A DNA stretch of 29,509 bases from a virus. The DNA lies in the IMG/VR virus record IMGVR_UViG_3300030104_003770, positions 1 through 29,509 of that record; one strand, written 5' to 3'. The notes below the pieces were generated by a model that ran no database searches, was not told the DNA's origin, and was given only the letters and a program-made list of their open reading frames with translations. Of the stretch, positions 690 to 27,087 are shown one piece after another. The position numbers and the translations under genes were made by a program. The stretch's first letter is position 1. Each line of letters opens with the position of its first letter.

Positions 690-2555
690 TTAAGAGTAAC
701 TAGATGAGGTTGTATAACCTACTCCAGCACTCGTTTCACCACTTGCTACAGTATCTGCAGTACCCGTTACTGAGACTTCTGAAGCTGTGATATCCAACAA
801 TTGGTTCCTTGACGAAATAATATCATTCGAATCGGGAATAATTGTGAAATCTATAGATGTATCTGTATTAGATGTTGAACTATATGTCAACGAATTAATA
901 CTTACCACACCTGTTGAATATGTTATTGTACCTGCTGTATTATCAGCATATACTCTTGTTGAACCGTCTAAGTAATATCTTCTAACATTACCTTTACCAT
1001 CGTCATCAAAGAAATAATTATTTGTATCTCCTGAGATAAAGAAACCAGTTGAAGTTAATACACCACCACTGTCTGCATTATGTCCTGAATGTGGATTGTA
1101 AATTGCGTTACCAAAATCTAATTTAATAGATGACTTTGTACCGTCTACAGTTGCCGTGTAATTTTTTCTTAATTTGATATTTGTAATGTTTGAAAGAATA
1201 GAAGTTTCTGTATTATCTATCTGTCCTGTTAATTGTGAATGTCTAAACAATGTATCGAATCCTGATAGTTGATTATTATCATAAGAGATAATAGATGCTC
1301 TTACTAAAGTTTCTAAAGCTGATTTAGTTTGAGATGTTTTAGTAGGATCATATTTAAAATTAGTTGTTATTAATATTTGTAATATTTCAGCATCAACAAT
1401 TTCAGGTCTTACAGTCAATACACTTAATTTAGAAAGACTATTTTTTAAATCAGTTTTTTCAGCTGTTGTTAAATTGTTTGAATATTGAGATGGTTTAAGT
1501 GAAACAAATACTTTGCCATATTGTATAGGATCAGCATCTTCACCTCCCCATACAGCAATTGAATCTGCACCAGGATAAAGTTCTTGTAGTTTTGCTTTAT
1601 AATCTTGTACTGTTACTAATCTGTTTTGTGAAGTATAAAATTTAGAAGCTGAAAATTTAATTTGATCTGTTGTCTCTATATCTTTACCACCTGATGCACT
1701 TACAGTATTTGTAAATACAACATCAGAATTACCACTTATAGATGTTGACATAGAAAAAGTACTAGCACCATTTGCATGTGTATCGTCTGTTACTAGATAT
1801 GATATAGAAATTTGATCACCATCTTTAGGTTGAGCACCTATAATACCATCTCCAAAATATACTTCGAATAAACCTTCGTCATTTTCTTGAACATAAAAAA
1901 CAGTTGATGAAGAATTGATACCTGTTAAGTCACCTGCTTTCGTCCAAGCAGTAACTGTATTATTTGAAGTGATATTAATTTTAATTGTACTTGTATCGAT
2001 ATTAGAATTTAACAAAGCAAATCTTTGATTTGAAATTTGATTATCAAATCTGTAAATATCTGTAGTTAATTTACCTTGAAATATTTCTAAATCTTTAAAA
2101 GTAAATGTACCACCATCAGGACTTATTGTTTTATTATCCAATGCAATAAATGTAAATGATGTACCGTCAAAGACTGTTGTAAATTCATGTCCTCTATTAA
2201 TTGTTAAACTAGAAGGAACAACACCACCGACCCTTGGACTAGTTACTGTTAAATCGAATTTAGCTTTTGCAGCTGTTCTAGACGAAGGTGTGTAACCTAA
2301 TTCTTTTGCTCTTGATACTACATTCTTTCTAATCTGTGCTGTGTCTAAGAACATTTCTGATGCTACCATATTAGCATTGAAAGCTGATGTATGAGCTGAG
2401 TATGCTAAGAGATCAATTAATGTAGCTAAGTTTGAACCCTCAAAGTTATAATCTTTAAGCGTTGTTTGTCCTTTAAGATATTCTTTAAGACTACTTTCTA
2501 CATCTTCAAAGTCTAAATCTGTTATGTTAATGTTTGAACTGTTTATCGTTGCCAT
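690..2555 (-). CDS. 6: baseplate wedge subunit gp6 (baseplate J family)
   Basis: A 621-aa protein close in length to T4 gp6 (660 aa). The N-terminal part has the gp6/baseplate-J pattern: an acidic start, then YNFEGSNLATLIDLLAY and a helical stretch (SEMFLDTAQIRKNVVSRAKE) before a beta-rich body. Further on, QDYKAKLQELYPGADSIAVWGG matches the conserved core of the gpJ-like fold. gp6 forms the inner iris ring of the baseplate wedge. It overlaps the stop of gp25 by one base and is translationally coupled to it. The C-terminus is Ser/Thr-rich. Confidence 0.93.
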   Translation of the reverse strand: MATINSSNINITDLDFEDVESSLKEYLKGQTTLKDYNFEGSNLATLIDLLAYSAHTSAFNANMVASEMFLDTAQIRKNVVSRAKELGYTPSSRTAAKAKFDLTVTSPRVGGVVPSSLTINRGHEFTTVFDGTSFTFIALDNKTISPDGGTFTFKDLEIFQGKLTTDIYRFDNQISNQRFALLNSNIDTSTIKINITSNNTVTAWTKAGDLTGINSSSTVFYVQENDEGLFEVYFGDGIIGAQPKDGDQISISYLVTDDTHANGASTFSMSTSISGNSDVVFTNTVSASGGKDIETTDQIKFSASKFYTSQNRLVTVQDYKAKLQELYPGADSIAVWGGEDADPIQYGKVFVSLKPSQYSNNLTTAEKTDLKNSLSKLSVLTVRPEIVDAEILQILITTNFKYDPTKTSQTKSALETLVRASIISYDNNQLSGFDTLFRHSQLTGQIDNTETSILSNITNIKLRKNYTATVDGTKSSIKLDFGNAIYNPHSGHNADSGGVLTSTGFFISGDTNNYFFDDDGKGNVRRYYLDGSTRVYADNTAGTITYSTGVVSINSLTYSSTSNTDTSIDFTIIPDSNDIISSRNQLLDITASEVSVTGTADTVASGETSAGVGYTTSSSYS

Positions 2556-2974
2556 TATCTTACTCTCTCTAAAGTTATATTTATTTCGTGTGGTGCCGGG
2601 TCATTTTGAACAGTAAAATACATTGATACATCTAAACTATTACCTTCTAAAAATGTAACTACATCTGTTACTTGAGCTCTAGGTTCAAATTTATTTATAA
2701 CTGCTTTGATATCATCTTCTAAAACATCTGTACCAACAAAACTTGTAGATAATTCAAATAACATACCTCTTAAATCAACACCTAAACTAGGTTTGAATGG
2801 TCTCTCGTAAAGATTAGTTGATAATAAATTTCTTACTGATCTTTTTACAGCATTGAGGTCTTGTTTTAACGACATATCACCACTTTGAGGATGCAATGTA
2901 AAGTTAGTATCAATATCAGTAAACCACCTTCTTGCTACTCTAGAACTTTTATTTTTACTATTAAACTGTGCCAT
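2555..2974 (-). CDS. 25: baseplate wedge subunit gp25
   Basis: A 139-aa protein with the T4 gp25/GPW fold signature: a Phe/Asp-rich opening (WFTDIDTNFTLHPQSGDM), then DLNAVKRSVRNLLSTN and ERPFKPSLGVDLRGMLFE. This is the conserved EPR-type loop region that joins wedge to sheath; here it reads ERPF. T4 gp25 is 132 aa. It lies between gp5 and gp6 as in cyanophages. No Shine-Dalgarno sequence is visible; instead CATAAATA, a late-promoter variant, sits 5 nt before the ATG. Confidence 0.92.
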   Translation of the reverse strand: MAQFNSKNKSSRVARRWFTDIDTNFTLHPQSGDMSLKQDLNAVKRSVRNLLSTNLYERPFKPSLGVDLRGMLFELSTSFVGTDVLEDDIKAVINKFEPRAQVTDVVTFLEGNSLDVSMYFTVQNDPAPHEINITLERVR

Positions 2975-2979
2975 ACTAT

Positions 2980-2987
2980 TATTTATG
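2980..2987 (-). promoter_or_regulatory. late-promoter variant abutting gp25
   Basis: CATAAATA on the minus strand, one base from the T4 late consensus TATAAATA, lies in the 17-nt gap between gp5 and gp25. It is followed by 5 nt and the ATG. If it is used, gp25 has a leaderless late mRNA. Confidence 0.4.
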
Positions 2988-2991
2988 TCAA

Positions 2992-4263
2992 TTAATCAGG
3001 TACTTCTGTTTTACCAGCAGACGAACCTGAACTTATTGTATGTGTATGTGTATCAAGAACTATCTCTTTACCTGTTATGCTATCAGTAGCTGTAATTGTT
3101 GAATCATTAGTTTGTTCATCTGTAACATGAAGTTTACCTGTAATTGTTGTATCTGAAATAATTTCTGTTGTATCATTACCTGTAATTGTTATCTTACCTT
3201 CAGAAGTTACATCACTTGTACCTGTTATAGTAGCTTTAAGATTACCACCAACTGTACTTGTACTGTCACCTGTAACATTCATGTGAGCGTTACCTGTTAT
3301 ATTTACAACAACATCTCCTGTAATTGTAACAAAATCATTTCCAGCTACTACAGAATATTTGTCTTTTACAATTTTCTCTACATAATTACCCTCTTTATCT
3401 ATTTCAACTCTTGTACCTGTTCTATGATAAAGATGTATTCTTTCATAATCAGGTGTATCATCTAATTCTATTATATGACCTGACTCTGTTTCGTGAACAT
3501 GGTTGAAAGGATACTTCGGTTTTAAATATGTTGTAACATCTCTAAGAGCTGTATTATTTTCACCTTCAGTTTTACCTACTTCTAAATTTTCTAAACCAGG
3601 ACCTTCCTGAGTATCTAAAGTAAGAATAGGATATATATCTTTTACTGGATTACTATTTTCAGAAGCATAGTCTGTTGCTCTTGCCAAATAGTTTACACTT
3701 GATGATGCTTTATATTCTTTTTTCGGATAAGATGAACCTTCTGTTTCACCAAATCTTCTAGGTGATGTTTCGAGGTCTAATGATAGGCCATAATTTCTAT
3801 TAATGTGTTTTGGATTAGGTCCGTCAGGTGTACCTTCGTATTCAGAAACACTTTTTAATCTAGGATCATTAAATCCTTCTTTTGTAGTTCTTTTAACTTC
3901 TGTAAATGTTCGTGTACCTTTATCATCTATCTGTTCATCTATTCTATAGATATCAGTCATAATACCTGAAAAAGATCCTATCACGACAGCATCTTGCATT
4001 TCTTCACCATCTCTATAGAAACCCATGACTGTAGAACCTTCAACTAACCCATGATGAGATGTACCAAGACCTGATACAGAAGGTGTTGTTACAGGCATCA
4101 TTACTTGACACCATGGTAAGTCTGGTGTTGCTATCATTTGTTTTTCCCAAGTATGAGACCCGTGTATTCTAACACGAACTCTATTTTGGAACAAAGGATC
4201 GTTTCTATCTTCTACGACACCCGTGAACCAAATGAAACCTGTTTTACCTTGATATTTTAACAT
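2992..4263 (-). CDS. 5: baseplate central spike gp5 (lysozyme-less)
   Basis: A 423-aa protein with an N-terminal OB-fold of the gp5/VgrG type (residues about 8-105: GFIWFTGVVEDRNDPLFQNR, later LVEGSTVMGFYRDGEEMQD). A linker follows, then a C-terminal beta-helix of repeating V-x-G units (about 310-390: VVNITGNAHMNVTGDS, TITGTSDV). T4 gp5 has a lysozyme domain between these parts; none is recognisable here, as in many marine T4-like phages. It forms the needle that pierces the outer membrane. The ATG overlaps the stop of the upstream hub gene (TAATG-type overlap at 4263), and the pair would form the hub-spike complex. Confidence 0.9.
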   Translation of the reverse strand: MLKYQGKTGFIWFTGVVEDRNDPLFQNRVRVRIHGSHTWEKQMIATPDLPWCQVMMPVTTPSVSGLGTSHHGLVEGSTVMGFYRDGEEMQDAVVIGSFSGIMTDIYRIDEQIDDKGTRTFTEVKRTTKEGFNDPRLKSVSEYEGTPDGPNPKHINRNYGLSLDLETSPRRFGETEGSSYPKKEYKASSSVNYLARATDYASENSNPVKDIYPILTLDTQEGPGLENLEVGKTEGENNTALRDVTTYLKPKYPFNHVHETESGHIIELDDTPDYERIHLYHRTGTRVEIDKEGNYVEKIVKDKYSVVAGNDFVTITGDVVVNITGNAHMNVTGDSTSTVGGNLKATITGTSDVTSEGKITITGNDTTEIISDTTITGKLHVTDEQTNDSTITATDSITGKEIVLDTHTHTISSGSSAGKTEVPD

Positions 4264-5720
4264 TATATTGTTTTTCCATATTCTAAAGCTGTAGTTTCAA
4301 TATTATTAATTACTGAATCTTTAATACATCTTACATTTAAATCACATGATGAGGGTCCTAAAATCCATTGACAATGTGTAATTAAATGTTTACCATTATA
4401 AAATTTAGGGTCTACTTCATCTTGTCCTGGGTTAGGGTTTGGTATATCTAAATTAATTAGTTGACCAACTGAGATATCTGTTCTTGCTGACAATACTAAA
4501 TCTACTGAATGATAATTTAATAATTCATTTGCAGCTGCTCTAAATTGATGTGAACCTAAATGTATTTGATGATTAGCTTGATGAATATTATTTTTTTCAT
4601 CATTCACAAAAGATTGATCACTAACTAATATTTGATGAGCATCATGATAAGAACTAATTGAATTACCTTCTTTTGAACCTGATATAGCAACTTCTCCTTC
4701 ATCGGATGATTCTCCAATATGTAAAACTTCTGGTTCTACTCTAACAAAAGGATGTTGTTCAATAGCTTGTGATTGACCACCATAAAACTTTTCTAAAAAA
4801 CTGTAAGACTTTTCTGTAAAAAATTGATATGTATTATCTATAGTAGTTTGTTTAGACCCAAATAATCCTTTGACAGTAGCTTCTAATACATTAGCATGAT
4901 TAGTTATTTCATACGATAATATTCTTCTACTAGCACCAATAGTTTCCTCGGTTGAATCAGCAGGTACATCTTTAGTACTATCTGCTGCTACAGCTTGTGA
5001 ATATGTAAATGGTCTACCACCAGCGTAATCAATCAACATCATACTTGCTAATGACTGTATTCTGTAACTACCATTAGCTGTCTGATACCAATAAAAAGAA
5101 TCTTGTAGTCCTGATGATTCATCAATACCTTGTGATTGTGAACACAACCAATTTATTGAATAGTTTACTGTCCAATTAGGTATGACTACATGATAATTAT
5201 CACCTTGTGATTTTTCTCTTACTTCGAAATGAGGTATTAATTTTTCTTTTACAGTTTCATTTTTAATACCTAAATGATCCTCTGCTAACAAAGCAGCCAT
5301 GTTAGTCATTGAACCTCTTAGTGCTTGACTAACTCTTTTTCTTCTAGACTCTAAAAACTCATTTGCTGTAAAGAATAACATGAGTACTTGAGTTTGATCT
5401 TCAAGTCTTGATTGACCAACTTTATATATTCTAAATACTTGATCGATTACATCTTCATCATCAATTTCATCATTCTTACCAGATGGTTGTCTAAATCTAA
5501 GTCTTAAAGATTCTTGACCAAATATTTTAGCGTTCTCTAAAAGATTAATAGAATCACCTAACATTAAATGACCTTGTAAAAAATTAGATTGTATTGATTC
5601 ACTTAGAACACATTCTATCATGAGGTCACGAACATCAAATCCTTCACCTTCATTATTTACTATTGTCAATATTTCTAACTCATAACTATCCGGTTTAGAG
5701 TTATCTATTCCTACTGCCAT
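4263..5720 (-). CDS. baseplate hub protein, gp27-like
   Basis: A 485-aa protein directly upstream of gp5 and overlapping it by one base. The N-terminus (SYELEILTIVNNEGEGFDVR, then MIECVLSESIQSNFLQGHLM) and the C-terminal pattern (VGQLINLDIPNPNPG, then GKHLITHCQWIL) resemble the gp27/VgrG tail-hub domains that bind the OB domain of gp5. T4 gp27 is 391 aa, so this one is longer. The hub identity rests on adjacency to gp5 and these patterns. It could instead be called a gp27-type conserved structural protein. Confidence 0.78.
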   Translation of the reverse strand: MAVGIDNSKPDSYELEILTIVNNEGEGFDVRDLMIECVLSESIQSNFLQGHLMLGDSINLLENAKIFGQESLRLRFRQPSGKNDEIDDEDVIDQVFRIYKVGQSRLEDQTQVLMLFFTANEFLESRRKRVSQALRGSMTNMAALLAEDHLGIKNETVKEKLIPHFEVREKSQGDNYHVVIPNWTVNYSINWLCSQSQGIDESSGLQDSFYWYQTANGSYRIQSLASMMLIDYAGGRPFTYSQAVAADSTKDVPADSTEETIGASRRILSYEITNHANVLEATVKGLFGSKQTTIDNTYQFFTEKSYSFLEKFYGGQSQAIEQHPFVRVEPEVLHIGESSDEGEVAISGSKEGNSISSYHDAHQILVSDQSFVNDEKNNIHQANHQIHLGSHQFRAAANELLNYHSVDLVLSARTDISVGQLINLDIPNPNPGQDEVDPKFYNGKHLITHCQWILGPSSCDLNVRCIKDSVINNIETTALEYGKTI

Positions 5721-7783: not shown

Positions 7784-7791
7784 TATTTATG
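7784..7791 (-). promoter_or_regulatory. late-promoter variant for the gp48 operon
   Basis: CATAAATA on the minus strand lies 43 nt before the gp48 ATG, in the divergent gap between gp48 and gp4. It overlaps the gp4 start codon on the other strand. It differs by one base from the T4 late consensus. Confidence 0.5.
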
Positions 7792-8244
7792 TCTTATAAA
7801 GGAAAGTTTAGACCCAAGAATCCAAATAAGTATAAAGGTAACCCTAGTAATATTATTTATCGCTCTTTATTAGAGCGTAGATTCATGGTTTATCTAGATA
7901 GTAATCCCTCTATATTAAAATGGTGTTCAGAAGAAATTGTTATACCGTATGTATCACCGGTAGATAATCGTGTGCATAGGTATTTTCCTGATTTTTACAT
8001 TAAGTATAAAACAAAAGATGATATGATAGTAGAAGAACTAATTGAAGTGAAACCTTTCGTTCAATGTTCACCTCCAAATCCCAAGAAGAAACTTACTAAA
8101 ACAGGTAGAACTTCTAAAAGATATCTAAAAGAAGTACAAACTTACATAGTTAATGATGCAAAATGGAACTCAGCTATGAAGTATTGTAAAGATAGAAAGT
8201 GGAAATGGAGAATTCTAACAGAAAAAGATATTAACATCTACTAA
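7789..8244 (+). CDS. 4: head completion protein gp4
   Basis: A 151-aa protein; T4 gp4 is 150 aa. It shows a PD-(D/E)XK/TnsA-like nuclease-fold pattern: E29 (SLLERRF), D68 (RYFPDFYIKY) and E86-V-K88 (LIEVKP). These features belong to the gp50/gp4 head-completion family needed to make heads competent for tail joining. It is the first gene of the rightward late operon and is divergent from gp48. There is no clear Shine-Dalgarno sequence before the ATG; an upstream AT-rich segment is the only candidate promoter. Confidence 0.88.
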   Translation: MSYKGKFRPKNPNKYKGNPSNIIYRSLLERRFMVYLDSNPSILKWCSEEIVIPYVSPVDNRVHRYFPDFYIKYKTKDDMIVEELIEVKPFVQCSPPNPKKKLTKTGRTSKRYLKEVQTYIVNDAKWNSAMKYCKDRKWKWRILTEKDINIY

Positions 8245-8248
8245 CTGA

Positions 8249-8256
8249 CATAAATA
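8249..8256 (+). promoter_or_regulatory. late-promoter variant before the outer-membrane gene
   Basis: CATAAATA lies 5 nt after the gp4 stop and 55 nt before the ATG of the next gene. The leader contains ATGAT/ATCAT, a 5-bp hairpin near 8270-8284, and ends with AAGGAG 7-8 nt before the ATG. Confidence 0.45.
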
Positions 8257-8310
8257 CTTTATTAACATTATGATTTTATATCATGAAAACTAATATTTAA
8301 GGAGTAATAT

Positions 8311-8925
8311 ATGAAAAACATATTAGTATTATTATCGACTTTTTCTATTATGTTCTCAGGAGCAGTTAGTGCTCTTTCTGGAGAGTATGGAATAAGTTCG
8401 GATTATATGTGGAGAGGTGTATCACAATCTGATGGTAAACCTTCAGTATACGCTTGTGCAGACCAAGCATTAGGACAAGGGTTCTATGTTGGTTCATGTG
8501 CAGCTTCTATTGATTTTAATAATGACTCAAAGGTCGAACTCGATCTTTATGGTGGTTATAGTATTTCAAAAGGAAAATTCACAATGGATGTAGGATATAT
8601 ATCTTACAGATATCCTAAAGAAGATTCTATGAATTTTGAAGAAAAATACATAGTACTTGGATATGATGCGTTAAGTATAGGTCATGCTTCAGGTATGGAC
8701 GATGCACCAGACTATGATTGGGTAGATTTATCTGTTCCTTTCATTGACTTTGCTGATGTCACATTACACTATGGAGATTATGATGGTGTTAAAGATAAGA
8801 GTATCAATGTTGAATACGCTTTATCTGATTCAATGAGTCTAGGAGTATTAATACAATCTAATGTTCAAGATGATCATGTCGCCATTGGTGATGCTGTATC
8901 ATTACATTTTAAAACATTATTCTAG
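8311..8925 (+). CDS. outer-membrane beta-barrel protein, Gcw_chp/TIGR02001-like
   Basis: A 204-aa protein with a clear signal peptide (residues 1 to about 21: Lys, then a hydrophobic stretch ending AVSA). The mature start (EYGISSDYMWRGVSQSDGKP) is the hallmark of the TIGR02001 family, bacterial presumed outer-membrane barrels. Alternating strands follow (VELDLYGGYSISKGKFTMDV, GYISYRYP) and the protein ends in a C-terminal strand with a terminal Phe (HFKTLF), as barrels do. Two Cys (near 49 and 58) could form a disulfide. It has its own late promoter and a strong AAGGAG. The function in a phage is unknown: surface remodelling, exclusion or lysis are possible. It sits in a virion-assembly operon, which is odd for a host-type envelope protein. 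Confidence 0.8.
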   Translation: MKNILVLLSTFSIMFSGAVSALSGEYGISSDYMWRGVSQSDGKPSVYACADQALGQGFYVGSCAASIDFNNDSKVELDLYGGYSISKGKFTMDVGYISYRYPKEDSMNFEEKYIVLGYDALSIGHASGMDDAPDYDWVDLSVPFIDFADVTLHYGDYDGVKDKSINVEYALSDSMSLGVLIQSNVQDDHVAIGDAVSLHFKTLF

Positions 8926-8934
8926 GATAAATAA

Positions 8935-9513
8935 ATGGCTGGGAGATTATTCGACAAACTTGAACAAGAAGCTTTTAGAGCAGGAATAGCTGCTAGAACA
9001 AAAGCTTCTATGGATTGGTTTCAAGACCGAGTAAGTAATGTCAATGTCTCCCGTGCCGGTTTACTTAGAGACGGTCCTACAAGAGCTCGACAAGTTTATG
9101 GTAGTATGTACAACTTTCAATATGATCCAAAAACAAAACAGACACTACCTTATTACGATAGATTTCCACTAGTCATACCTGTACAACCTGCTAAGAATGG
9201 TTTTCATGGTATGAATTTACATTATATAGCTCCAAATATTAGAGCTCAGTTCTTAGATTCGTTAATGGATATAACAAATAACGATAAATATGATAGAAGC
9301 ACAAAATTTAAATTAACTTATCAAATATTAAAGAGAGCGACACAATACAGATTTTTTAAACCATGTTTTAAACATTATCTATCAGAACATATTCAATCTA
9401 AATTATTATTGATTGAACCTCAAGATTGGGAAATAGCTATATTCTTACCAACTGAGTCATTTAGAAAAGTTAGTAAAGATAGTGTTTGGAAAGAAAGTAG
9501 GAGTAAATTTTAA
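8935..9513 (+). CDS. conserved T4-like marine phage assembly protein
   Basis: A 192-aa protein. Its N-terminus (LFDKLEQEAFRAGIAARTKA) and middle (YGSMYNFQYDPKTKQTLPYY, FPLVIPVQPA, FHGMNLHYI) are strongly patterned like a family kept beside gp4 and the tube-like gene in marine T4-like phages. I do not know a proven function. The aromatic-rich middle and a helical C-terminal half suggest a structural or baseplate-hub role. It is followed by the tube-like gene with the stop and start sharing one base (TAATG). Confidence 0.6.
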   Translation: MAGRLFDKLEQEAFRAGIAARTKASMDWFQDRVSNVNVSRAGLLRDGPTRARQVYGSMYNFQYDPKTKQTLPYYDRFPLVIPVQPAKNGFHGMNLHYIAPNIRAQFLDSLMDITNNDKYDRSTKFKLTYQILKRATQYRFFKPCFKHYLSEHIQSKLLLIEPQDWEIAIFLPTESFRKVSKDSVWKESRSKF

Positions 9514-16118: not shown

Positions 16119-16243
16119 GTTTTTAGTGTCATTGATTCTTCTGTTTGTTTCAAAGCTCGTAATATACCATACTGTCTTTCGTCAATACCATAGTTGTTGT
16201 GGGATATCATAAACAAAGTGTATAATATAATAGCTTTATTCAT
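16115..16243 (-). CDS. 42-aa small protein downstream of IscU
   Basis: The ORF starts at an ATGA overlap with the IscU stop (GTATGA), a strong sign of translational coupling. The hydrophobic N-terminus (MNKAIILYTLFMISHNNYG) could be a short signal peptide, followed by a polar helix (DERQYGILRALKQTEESM). No family recognised. It ends within the gp33 promoter. Confidence 0.55.
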   Translation of the reverse strand: MNKAIILYTLFMISHNNYGIDERQYGILRALKQTEESMTLKT

Positions 16244-16722
16244 ACCGGGTCATCATAACCAGGTCTATCATAATTGGACATAACATCAGCAGCATCATCT
16301 GCAGCACTTGGTGGGTTATTATGACCTAACATTGTATCAGGTTCCCAATTTTGTATTGCCTTCTGTATTGCTTCTTCTGCTAGTACACTACAATGTAATT
16401 TAATCGGTGGTAGTTGTAAGGCATCAGCTATATCTTTATCTTTAATCGCTTTAGCTTCATCAATAGTTTTACCTTTCAACATTTCTACAAACATAGTACT
16501 TGAGGCAATTGCTGAACCACAACCATATGTTTTGAACTTAACATCTTCTATAACATCACCTTTCATTTTCATATCTAGTTTCATCACATCACCACAAGAA
16601 GGAGCTCCTACCATCCCTGTAATAACAGTTTTATCATTAGGATCAAATCTTCCGACTGAATGTTTTTCTGGATTTTTAAGTACGCTTTCAAATCTTTCTA
16701 CTACTTCTTTACTATATGCCAT
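16240..16722 (-). CDS. iscU: IscU-type Fe-S cluster scaffold
   Basis: A 160-aa protein almost identical in pattern to bacterial IscU (about 128 aa). All key residues are present: C43 and D45 (GMVGAPSCGDVMKL), C68 (YGCGSAIASS), C111 (LHCSVLAEEAI), and the HscA-binding LPPIK at 104-108. So it should assemble a [2Fe-2S] cluster. A 28-residue acidic, Asn/Pro/Asp-rich C-terminal tail (from about 133) is extra. There is no IscS, HscA or ferredoxin neighbour here, so it would work with host partners. IscU/NifU-like genes have been reported in marine phages as auxiliary genes. Confidence 0.9.
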   Translation of the reverse strand: MAYSKEVVERFESVLKNPEKHSVGRFDPNDKTVITGMVGAPSCGDVMKLDMKMKGDVIEDVKFKTYGCGSAIASSTMFVEMLKGKTIDEAKAIKDKDIADALQLPPIKLHCSVLAEEAIQKAIQNWEPDTMLGHNNPPSAADDAADVMSNYDRPGYDDPV

Positions 16723-24318: not shown

Positions 24319-24729
24319 CTAAGCTGCCATATCTGAAATATCATGCCAAGTTGCATGACATAAGACAGCATCATCATACCCATATCTAGTATCGGTATCA
24401 TTAAAAATCCTAATTGCGTAGTCAGCAGCAAGTGAATCACACAATCCTTTACCACCAACATTCCAGATAATCTTTTCATAATCATCACCAAAATTCCTTG
24501 AGTAATGCCAATCATATAAAGAGAAAGTACCTCTTTCAGTATTTTCTGTTATATCATCATGATACTCATAATCAATCACAAACTCTGTTGTGATATTGTC
24601 ACCTTTACCTTCGAACGCTGGCTTTCCGAACATTTCTTTCAAATCAGCAAACGAAGCGTTTATGGTTCCTTGTCTAGAACCTCCCGCTGTACCAGATGTA
24701 CAGGGAATAAATAATATTGATTTCATCAT
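24319..24729 (-). CDS. 136-aa conserved phage protein
   Basis: Blocks FADLKEMFGKPAFEGKGDNI, FVIDYEYHDD, GTFSLYDWHYSRNFGDDYEK and IIWNVGGKG are well formed and of a type seen in T4-like phages, with a globular alpha/beta look. The C-terminal DAVLCHATWHDISDMAA is polar. GAGGTAAG precedes the two ATGs by 6 nt. The repeat element copy B ends 26 nt upstream. Function unknown. Confidence 0.7.
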   Translation of the reverse strand: MMKSILFIPCTSGTAGGSRQGTINASFADLKEMFGKPAFEGKGDNITTEFVIDYEYHDDITENTERGTFSLYDWHYSRNFGDDYEKIIWNVGGKGLCDSLAADYAIRIFNDTDTRYGYDDAVLCHATWHDISDMAA

Positions 24730-24989
24730 ATACTTACCTCATTAATTAAACTACTAAAAATGAATTGAGACTGATGCTCCTCTGAAACGCGGATTGACTT
24801 ACACAATCTCAATTCATTGAAATTCAAACCTAGACCGAGTGACCCTCTCGCAGGTGTCCAATCTAGGAATGGTATCAAACCAACTTTGTCTACCTCACCC
24901 ATCACGAATGAGTTCTCGGTTCCATGTCTAAGCTGGATAGCTAGTGAAGCTACGACTTGTTTGGTTAATTTCACGATACTTTTAATCAT
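24726..24989 (-). CDS. 87-aa small phage protein, 3' end formed by the repeat element
   Basis: The start MIKSIVKLTKQVVASLAIQL is amphipathic or membrane-seeking; the middle (FVMGEVDKVGLIPFLDWTPA, RGSLGLGLNFN) looks conserved. From about residue 58 the frame runs through repeat copy B and ends in unrelated-looking sequence (HQSQFIFSSLINEVSI). The natural protein may have ended near NFN before the element arrived. The ATG lies 7 nt after a -10 box, so the mRNA is leaderless. Confidence 0.6.
   Translation of the reverse strand: MIKSIVKLTKQVVASLAIQLRHGTENSFVMGEVDKVGLIPFLDWTPARGSLGLGLNFNELRLCKSIRVSEEHQSQFIFSSLINEVSI
24755..24817 (-). repeat. 63-nt repeated hairpin element, copy B
   Basis: One base differs from copy A (plus strand G at 24784 versus A at 20740; in the loop). 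The 11-bp inverted repeat (24760-24770 and 24807-24817) is intact. This copy is inside the 3' end of the 87-aa frame and 26 nt upstream of the 136-aa gene. It has no promoter of its own like copy A. Confidence 0.8.
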
Positions 24990-24996
24990 TGTTACT

Positions 24997-25026
24997 ATTA
25001 TACAAAAAGGGTACCAGCGGTTACAA
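24997..25026 (-). promoter_or_regulatory. conserved-spacer early-type promoter (copy 2)
   Basis: TTGTAA, spacer CCGCTGGTACCCTTTTTG (18 nt), TATAAT, then 7 nt to the ATG at 24989. The -35 box overlaps the stop of the upstream 110-aa gene. Confidence 0.72.
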
Positions 25027-25353
25027 GCACATTGGTAAATACCCTATTTTAACTTTTTTAAACTTTCTTCTACTTTTACTGAATGTACCAGGTCTTCCAA
25101 ATTCAACCCAATGTTCTCTATCAATGTTATTTCTAACAAAGTACCCACATAAGTTACCACCACCATTGAGAACATAAGTATGACTAGGTACTTTGAATTC
25201 TACCTTATCCCATACTGTTACTTCTTCGATACATTCAAAATTATCAAAATCTGTTATCGGTGGATACTTACGACCTTTTGAATACCAACCTTTCTCCCAT
25301 TTAGGGTGAGGATTGGTATCACTATAAACTATTGGTCTTTGGAAATTTATCAT
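25021..25353 (-). CDS. 110-aa phage protein of unknown function
   Basis: The ATG at 25353 is in an ATGA overlap with the stop of the 141-aa gene. Polar, aromatic and basic (HPKWEKGWYSKGRKYPPITD), with a compact middle (VWDKVEFKVPSHTYVLNGGG) and a basic end (KSRRKFKKVKIGYLPMCL). Three Cys, no metal motif. No family recognised. Confidence 0.6.
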   Translation of the reverse strand: MINFQRPIVYSDTNPHPKWEKGWYSKGRKYPPITDFDNFECIEEVTVWDKVEFKVPSHTYVLNGGGNLCGYFVRNNIDREHWVEFGRPGTFSKSRRKFKKVKIGYLPMCL

Positions 25354-26639: not shown

Positions 26640-26698
26640 CAATAGAACAAATACTAGTACTAATCGTAGTTCTAATAACTATATGGGGATTATCATGA
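26636..26698 (+). CDS. 20-aa membrane peptide
   Basis: ATGA overlaps with both neighbours (stop of the 54-aa gene and start of the next gene) and a sequence that is a single membrane helix, MTIEQILVLIVVLITIWGLS. The double coupling argues for real translation despite the size. Confidence 0.5.
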   Translation: MTIEQILVLIVVLITIWGLS

Positions 26699-27087
26699 AA
26701 ACAATCATAACAACAATACTATTACTATTACCACTAGTCGCACACTCTGGTTTTGAAACTTGGGAACAAAAAGATAAGAATCTATGGTATACATACATGG
26801 CACTTAATGTAATAGATACAGCTCAAACATTTGACCTTATAGAGAAACAAAGAGACCCTTACTATCTACATAAGAACAATCTTATAGAGACAAATCCAAT
26901 ACTAGGTAGAAACCCAAGTAAGAAAGATTTAATTATACTTAAAACAGTAATGACAGGATTAGCATATCATATACTAGATAAGAACCCAAATGAAAGAACA
27001 CTTACATTAGGTATCATGAATGGTATCTATCTTAATACAGTATACAATAACTATGAGATAGGATTAAAGTTTAACTTCCATTTCTGA
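26695..27087 (+). CDS. 130-aa secreted or membrane phage protein
   Basis: The ATG at 26695 overlaps the previous stop (ATGA) and gives a clean signal peptide (MKTIITTILLLLPLVAHSG). A longer frame starts 12 nt earlier. The mature part carries WYTYMALNVIDTAQTFDLIE, NPILGRNPSKKDLIILKTVM and TLGIMNGIYLNTVYNNYEIG, a pattern seen in periplasmic or membrane proteins of marine T4-like phages. The terminal FNFHF resembles an outer-membrane end. Possibly part of a lysis or envelope system with the three genes before it. Confidence 0.68.
   Translation: MKTIITTILLLLPLVAHSGFETWEQKDKNLWYTYMALNVIDTAQTFDLIEKQRDPYYLHKNNLIETNPILGRNPSKKDLIILKTVMTGLAYHILDKNPNERTLTLGIMNGIYLNTVYNNYEIGLKFNFHF

Follow-up and report, generated by a model that had tools for sequence, protein, structure and literature searches.

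A TIGR02001-family outer-membrane barrel gene kept and exchanged between gp4 and gp2 of marine T4-like phages, with a possible role as a nutrient channel

A gene of a cellular outer-membrane protein family, kept intact between two virion genes of a lytic phage, raises the question of what its product does in the infected cell. Such a gene is found in a viral DNA of 29,509 nucleotides (IMG/VR record IMGVR_UViG_3300030104_003770, positions 1 to 29,509), which was analysed as a whole and is called the window here; the features of the locus are collected in Table 1. A sequence-only reading had described the product as a complete TIGR02001-like barrel with a signal peptide and a terminal Phe, and this description was borne out. 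The open reading frame matched TIGR02001 with an E-value of 3.8e-23 (82.3 bits vs a cut-off of 47.15) and PF09694 with an E-value of 4.8e-21 (76.2 bits vs a cut-off of 24). As read directly from the sequence rather than by a dedicated predictor, residues 1-21 are signal-peptide-like, and the protein terminates in F204, a Phe that is near-invariant across the T4-like set. The best TIGR02001 stretch covers only profile positions 31-150 of 244 and the C-terminal half has diverged, yet the AlphaFold2 model, built on an alignment of 83 viral and bacterial sequences (A3), closes a 12-stranded barrel with a pLDDT of 93.2 and a pTM of 0.82; modelling with just 12 close sequences (A1) had failed at a pLDDT of 32. 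The gene is thus an intact TIGR02001/PF09694 member with a predicted 12-stranded barrel, and a degenerate copy is ruled out by the intact frames and a low dN/dS.

Table 1. Positions of the barrel gene, the elements of its leader and its two neighbours in the window
Feature	Position	Strand	Evidence and remarks
gp4, head completion/closure protein (TnsA-like fold), upstream neighbour	7789..8244	+	PF08722, E 2.6e-22
Late-type promoter box CATAAATA, part of conserved ATAAATAC	8249..8256	+	sequence; leader alignment
AU-rich stem-loop in leader, weak	8268..8286	+	RNAfold, z -0.5 in window leader
Ribosome-binding site AAGGAG	8299..8304	+	sequence; 6 bases upstream of ATG
TIGR02001/Gcw_chp (TorF-type) outer-membrane barrel, 12 predicted strands	8311..8925	+	204 aa, signal peptide; profiles, AlphaFold2 model
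gp2, DNA end protector, downstream neighbour	8935..9513	+	tblastn matches 1961 phage records, best annotated DNA end protector

The solved folds nearest to the barrel model are KdgM, NanC and VhGalP, small outer-membrane channels that share the predicted 12-stranded monomer fold (Z 15-17; best match, KdgM/NanC, Z 16.9 and 2.5 Å over 161 aligned residues), whereas their sequences are only 8-9% identical to it. They gave no profile match, and KdgM (8% identity) was absent at E<=1 when the A3 profile was compared with the PDB sequences. Seven residues, Y32, R35, G36, Q39, E76, D78 and E111, are invariant in 83/83 viral and bacterial members and are kept in the window barrel. With the loops oriented by the usual periplasmic position of the termini, the longest predicted outer loop (30-44), which carries DYxWRGxSQ, has stayed much the same in bacterial and phage members and, at 0.72 bits, is among the most conserved parts of the protein.

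The sequence-only reading had further given the barrel gene its own late-promoter variant and ribosome-binding site; the latter is evident in the sequence, and the leaders of related loci support the promoter box. The 32 loci compared yielded 23 different leaders, 21 of which could be aligned, and ATAAATAC is invariant in all 21; on this invariance the late-type box was accepted. A single box would not be significant alone, since YATAAATA occurs 11 times in the window vs 9.5 times expected, no more commonly than by chance, and ATAAATA lies within 110 bases of 10 of the 41 listed gene starts. A stem-loop was predicted at about the same leader position in most of the 23 leaders, with shifting registers and single-sequence z values from -2.1 to +0.8; lying just past the late box in the window, the AU-rich hairpin may lie where the late transcript begins. 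A search with Rfam gave no match anywhere in the window. The gene gp55 was seen in 0/14 barrel-bearing or sister records, all of them fragments and therefore uninformative on this point.

The genomic position had been given as between gp4 and the hub genes. The upstream part stands, and a gp4 copy 92% identical to that of the window matches the PHROG for head closure; the downstream gene is gp2, however, followed by the tail tube and only then by the hub genes (cf. the order in phage C48C1). The distribution of the barrel at this position was surveyed by a scan of IMG/VR with gp2, in which the barrel itself was not used and the best 80 of 102 loci were taken. The barrel occupies the same slot in 30 of the 40 loci with gp2 at least 66% identical (five of the 30 are cut by a contig end), and in the other ten the gap between gp4 and gp2 is only 21-24 bases. 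None of the next 40 loci shows it there (slot visible in 38, cut in 2), nor does C48C1, the nearest named phage by gp2. The gene is thus neither degenerate nor confined to the window, and contamination with host DNA is rejected because three quarters of the loci closest by gp2 (30/40) carry it.

Among 50,697 phage records, 12 contain barrel matches, ten in Caulobacter phages (Bertelyvirus) and two resembling bacterial DNA. The matches in 'Acinetobacter phage MD-2021a', where catechol genes surround the barrel, look bacterial and were set aside as phage evidence. Bacterial relatives were missed by a contig scan with the 12-sequence alignment A1, which found none, whereas the broader alignment A2 found 457 matches, of which the best 80 are 31-49% identical to the barrel over the best segment. 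The term 'host-type' used in the sequence-only reading is loose in view of this low identity. A tree was built from 125 sequences. In it the barrels of unrelated phage types, 27 of them T4-like and 20 from other phages, group together (99/96), and 76 bacterial sequences lie outside this group. The root is set by midpoint only and the bacterial set is drawn from the best 80 of the 457 matches, so that a closer relative among bacteria may have escaped the sample. The barrel of Caulobacter phage CcrSC, on a long branch, and the Acinetobacter record fall among the bacterial sequences. The tree omitted L019, L138, L144, L177, L222, L223 and duplicates, and L014 was cut to its last 229 residues; the protein set omitted the repeat copies L001, L024 and L025. 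The phylogeny against bacterial TIGR02001 proteins thus places 47 distinct marine-phage barrels in one clade; together with the Bertelyvirus members, these copies tell against the earlier remark that no phage system built on this family was known.

The barrel is under purifying selection, with dN/dS values of 0.153, 0.155 and 0.217 for the window copy against L002, L003 and L004, respectively, hence about 0.15-0.22. Its history is partly independent of its neighbours. Across 32 loci with complete gp4, barrel and gp2, out of 35 (L185, on the same contig as L028, was left out), pairwise identities of gp4 and gp2 correlate at 0.73, while those of the barrel correlate with gp2 or gp4 at only 0.42. 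Loci L004 and L189 are 93% identical in gp4 and 94% in gp2 but just 43% in the barrel, and L028 and L186 share a 95% identical barrel with just 65% identity in gp2. This uncoupling suggests that the barrel is exchanged as a cassette.

A functional lead comes from the genes that adjoin barrels of this family. Among the best 80 of the 457 bacterial matches, glnK and/or amtB lie in the examined flanks of 45 loci and are missing from those of 35. One SAR86 group has the order barrel-glnK-amtB-glnK-amtB, with the transport genes immediately downstream, and the linkage is also found in Cycloclasticus, Asticcacaulis and others; no glnK or amtB was seen in the flanks of two other SAR86 groups or of most Sedimenticola and Hyphomonas. 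Some phages show the same association. In a T4-like fragment with UvsY, a helicase and the late sigma factor gp55 (L198), the order is uvsY-uvsW-gp55-barrel-amtB, the transporter being assigned by PF00909, and this barrel nests in the tree among those of the gp4-gp2 slot. In a different phage type with a ribonucleotide reductase (L235/L236), the barrel ends 12 bases ahead of amtB; the record that holds L235 (G046) carries two TIGR02001-type barrels, at C1:3513-4058 (below the family cut-off) and 24466-25032, one of them beside amtB. In L220 and L277, amtB lies 4-5 kb from the barrel on the same fragment, and L277 also has an IscU-like gene before the barrel.

The association in viruses is partial. 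A scan for viral amtB gave 76 of 80 loci without a barrel in the examined DNA, and with L220 added the barrel is present in 5/81. Nine of ten longer viral records bear amtB, and three of these nine also hold a TIGR02001 gene (raw counts that ignore kinship), the two genes being far apart in the records of 129.6 kb and 109.8 kb. Among 20 barrel-bearing records, 18 lack amtB and two have it, all being fragments in which absence proves little, and no amtB adjoins the barrel in the window. Other neighbours also occur: in CcrSC the barrel lies beside PnuC and a ribosylnicotinamide (NR) kinase, and in L209 it adjoins an 816-aa protein with a TonB-dependent receptor plug domain (2379-4829). In L216 (4210-4839 and 11930-13856), polyphosphate-kinase-2-like, curlin-like and FecR-like ORFs near a TIGR02001 barrel were noticed by eye, not by profile.

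Taken at a probability of roughly one half, our preferred reading is that the protein acts as a late-expressed small diffusion channel of the outer membrane for nutrient import, the cargo most likely being ammonium, or else some other small nitrogenous compound, that AmtB would take up. A channel that feeds an inner-membrane importer, probably AmtB, is the simplest account that covers the family, the fold, the invariant residues and the neighbours. One lineage of marine T4-like phages would have gained, at the gp4-gp2 junction, a mobile one-gene cassette consisting of late promoter, leader, ribosome-binding site and exported barrel. We infer that the protein would be exported, would insert and fold in the outer membrane of the host to give a small TIGR02001 (TorF-type) channel and would be active as a pore; it would probably widen the entry of a small nutrient to the periplasm and so feed the inner-membrane transporter, most likely with a nitrogenous substrate and with a presumed benefit, while the infected cell builds virions. 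A late promoter is unusual on a metabolic gene, which counts against this role. The sequence-only reading had proposed a late, secreted envelope protein that could block superinfection, change receptors or help rupture the outer membrane; the late-type box, the signal peptide and an intact phage-borne gene agree with its first part, whereas the neighbourhoods favour transport over the three functions. A virion component was rejected on the signal peptide and the transport neighbourhoods, not by experiment.

The main rival, to which we give a limited but real chance, is envelope remodelling or superinfection exclusion, in which the late barrel would replace, mask or crowd a receptor so that progeny or rival phages skip the infected cell or its debris. 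Its best argument lies in the other tenants of the gp4-gp2 slot, several of which, judged by their sequences, act on surface glycans. In ten of the 80 loci found via gp4, three ORFs on roughly 2.1-2.3 kb separate gp4 from gp2, and the one tested (L041, 2863-5071) encodes a HAD hydrolase, a KdsB-like cytidylyltransferase (CMP-Kdo synthetase-like) and a third ORF. The slot holds two sulfotransferases in L346 (336-1477), a GT25 glycosyltransferase ('LPS biosynthesis') in L376 (682-1332) and a nitroreductase in L042 (531-1157); since these genes, the three-ORF sets and the barrel occupy the junction in different phages, it is a cargo site. The swapping of barrel alleles between near-identical flanks (L004/L189) would also suit exclusion. 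The loops speak on both sides: across 15 T4-like copies, outer loops L2-L6, with loop 1 excluded, are more variable than the strands (1.55 vs 1.24 bits), whereas all outer loops together show no excess (1.25 vs 1.24 bits), the longest being the highly conserved one shared with bacteria and the others being short. Furthermore, the low dN/dS argues against exclusion, which also leaves the amtB neighbourhoods unexplained; PADLOC gave no match, a result that says little here, as it covers anti-phage defence.

A transport channel for a substrate other than nitrogen compounds, such as nicotinamide riboside, iron compounds or organic solutes, seems unlikely. The PnuC gene beside the CcrSC barrel, the TonB-receptor-like gene in L209 and the sugar-acid porins as nearest folds point towards it, but the commonest transport neighbours found are glnK and amtB. 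A lysis aid, which would make the outer membrane weaker or work with endolysin and spanins, would fit the timing given by a late-type promoter and the export signal. It is very improbable, since TIGR02001 proteins are ordinary outer-membrane proteins of bacteria whose genes adjoin those for transport, and since the barrels of L198, L220, L235 and L277 are surrounded by genes for DNA metabolism and transport rather than for lysis. A selfish or neutral hitch-hiker, without benefit and maintained because a permissive slot recombines often, would match the patchy distribution, the gene being missing from ten of the 40 loci closest by gp2, but is hardly credible given purifying selection, a conserved late promoter and intact frames.

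Phage-encoded outer-membrane barrels include Lom and Lc (PA-2), which we take to belong to other families and to prophages of temperate enterobacterial phages; Lc has been linked to receptor change and exclusion. The idea of a nutrient porin in phages also has precedent. According to PMC8115048, marine viruses carry a glnK-amtB-ompL porin cassette, for whose glnK and amtB its authors propose raised ammonium uptake, and phage ammonium transporters are reported in PMC7174320. The cassette resembles our locus in that a phage-carried outer-membrane barrel is linked to amtB, and differs in that its porin is OmpL, traced there to Flavobacteriales, whereas the window barrel is a TIGR02001 member in the gp4-gp2 slot with no adjoining glnK or amtB; neither TIGR02001 nor Gcw is mentioned in the main text of PMC8115048. 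Phage porins beside amtB are therefore already published, for another family. Bacterial members named 'TorF family putative porin', such as those of SAR86 beside glnK-amtB, are alike in profile score, barrel, the DYxWRGxSQ of loop 1 and the invariant charged residues, but the window barrel is 33-39% identical to the SAR86 copies, belongs to a virus-specific clade, has a late-type promoter and lies outside a glnK-amtB operon. CcrSC gp344 is a TIGR02001 member as well (109.2 bits), though of a jumbo phage and in another slot. The literature searched yielded no work on TIGR02001 or Gcw_chp, the name 'TorF family putative porin' being met in a gold-nanoparticle study, and so far as these searches reach, the family in this setting, the virus-specific clade across phage types, the late-promoter cassette and the slot are new.

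A lead on the host comes from an IscU-like Fe-S scaffold gene elsewhere in the window (16240-16722, minus strand; NifU_N, E 3.6e-38). Its product shares 66% identity with a single SAR86 copy, 60-61% with three others and 62% with that of Thioglobus, and a search of four SAR86 genomes gave no match. T4-like phages with IscU have been proposed in PMC5332604 to infect SAR86, and the best bacterial matches of the barrel by E-value (among the best 80 of 457) are from SAR86; on these grounds SAR86 is a plausible host, as a lead only. The window also encodes a second exported-looking small protein (26683-27087, plus strand; 134 aa, ending in Phe), for which neither Pfam nor NCBIfam gave a match.

Most descriptions of virus-encoded nutrient uptake in the sea concern the inner membrane. 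As a speculation to which we give little weight, unrelated marine phages might share a virus-specific channel lineage that, together with phage AmtB, makes an import route across both membranes in some infected cells, while the swapped late alleles of the gp4-gp2 slot might double as surface labels repelling competitors. A channel lineage kept and exchanged by many marine phages would mean that viruses alter either what enters the periplasm of their hosts or the surface shown to other phages. For Gcw_chp, a family of unknown function, the locus offers a link with ammonium uptake that can be put to the test, and it marks the gp4-gp2 junction as a cargo slot in marine T4-like phages.
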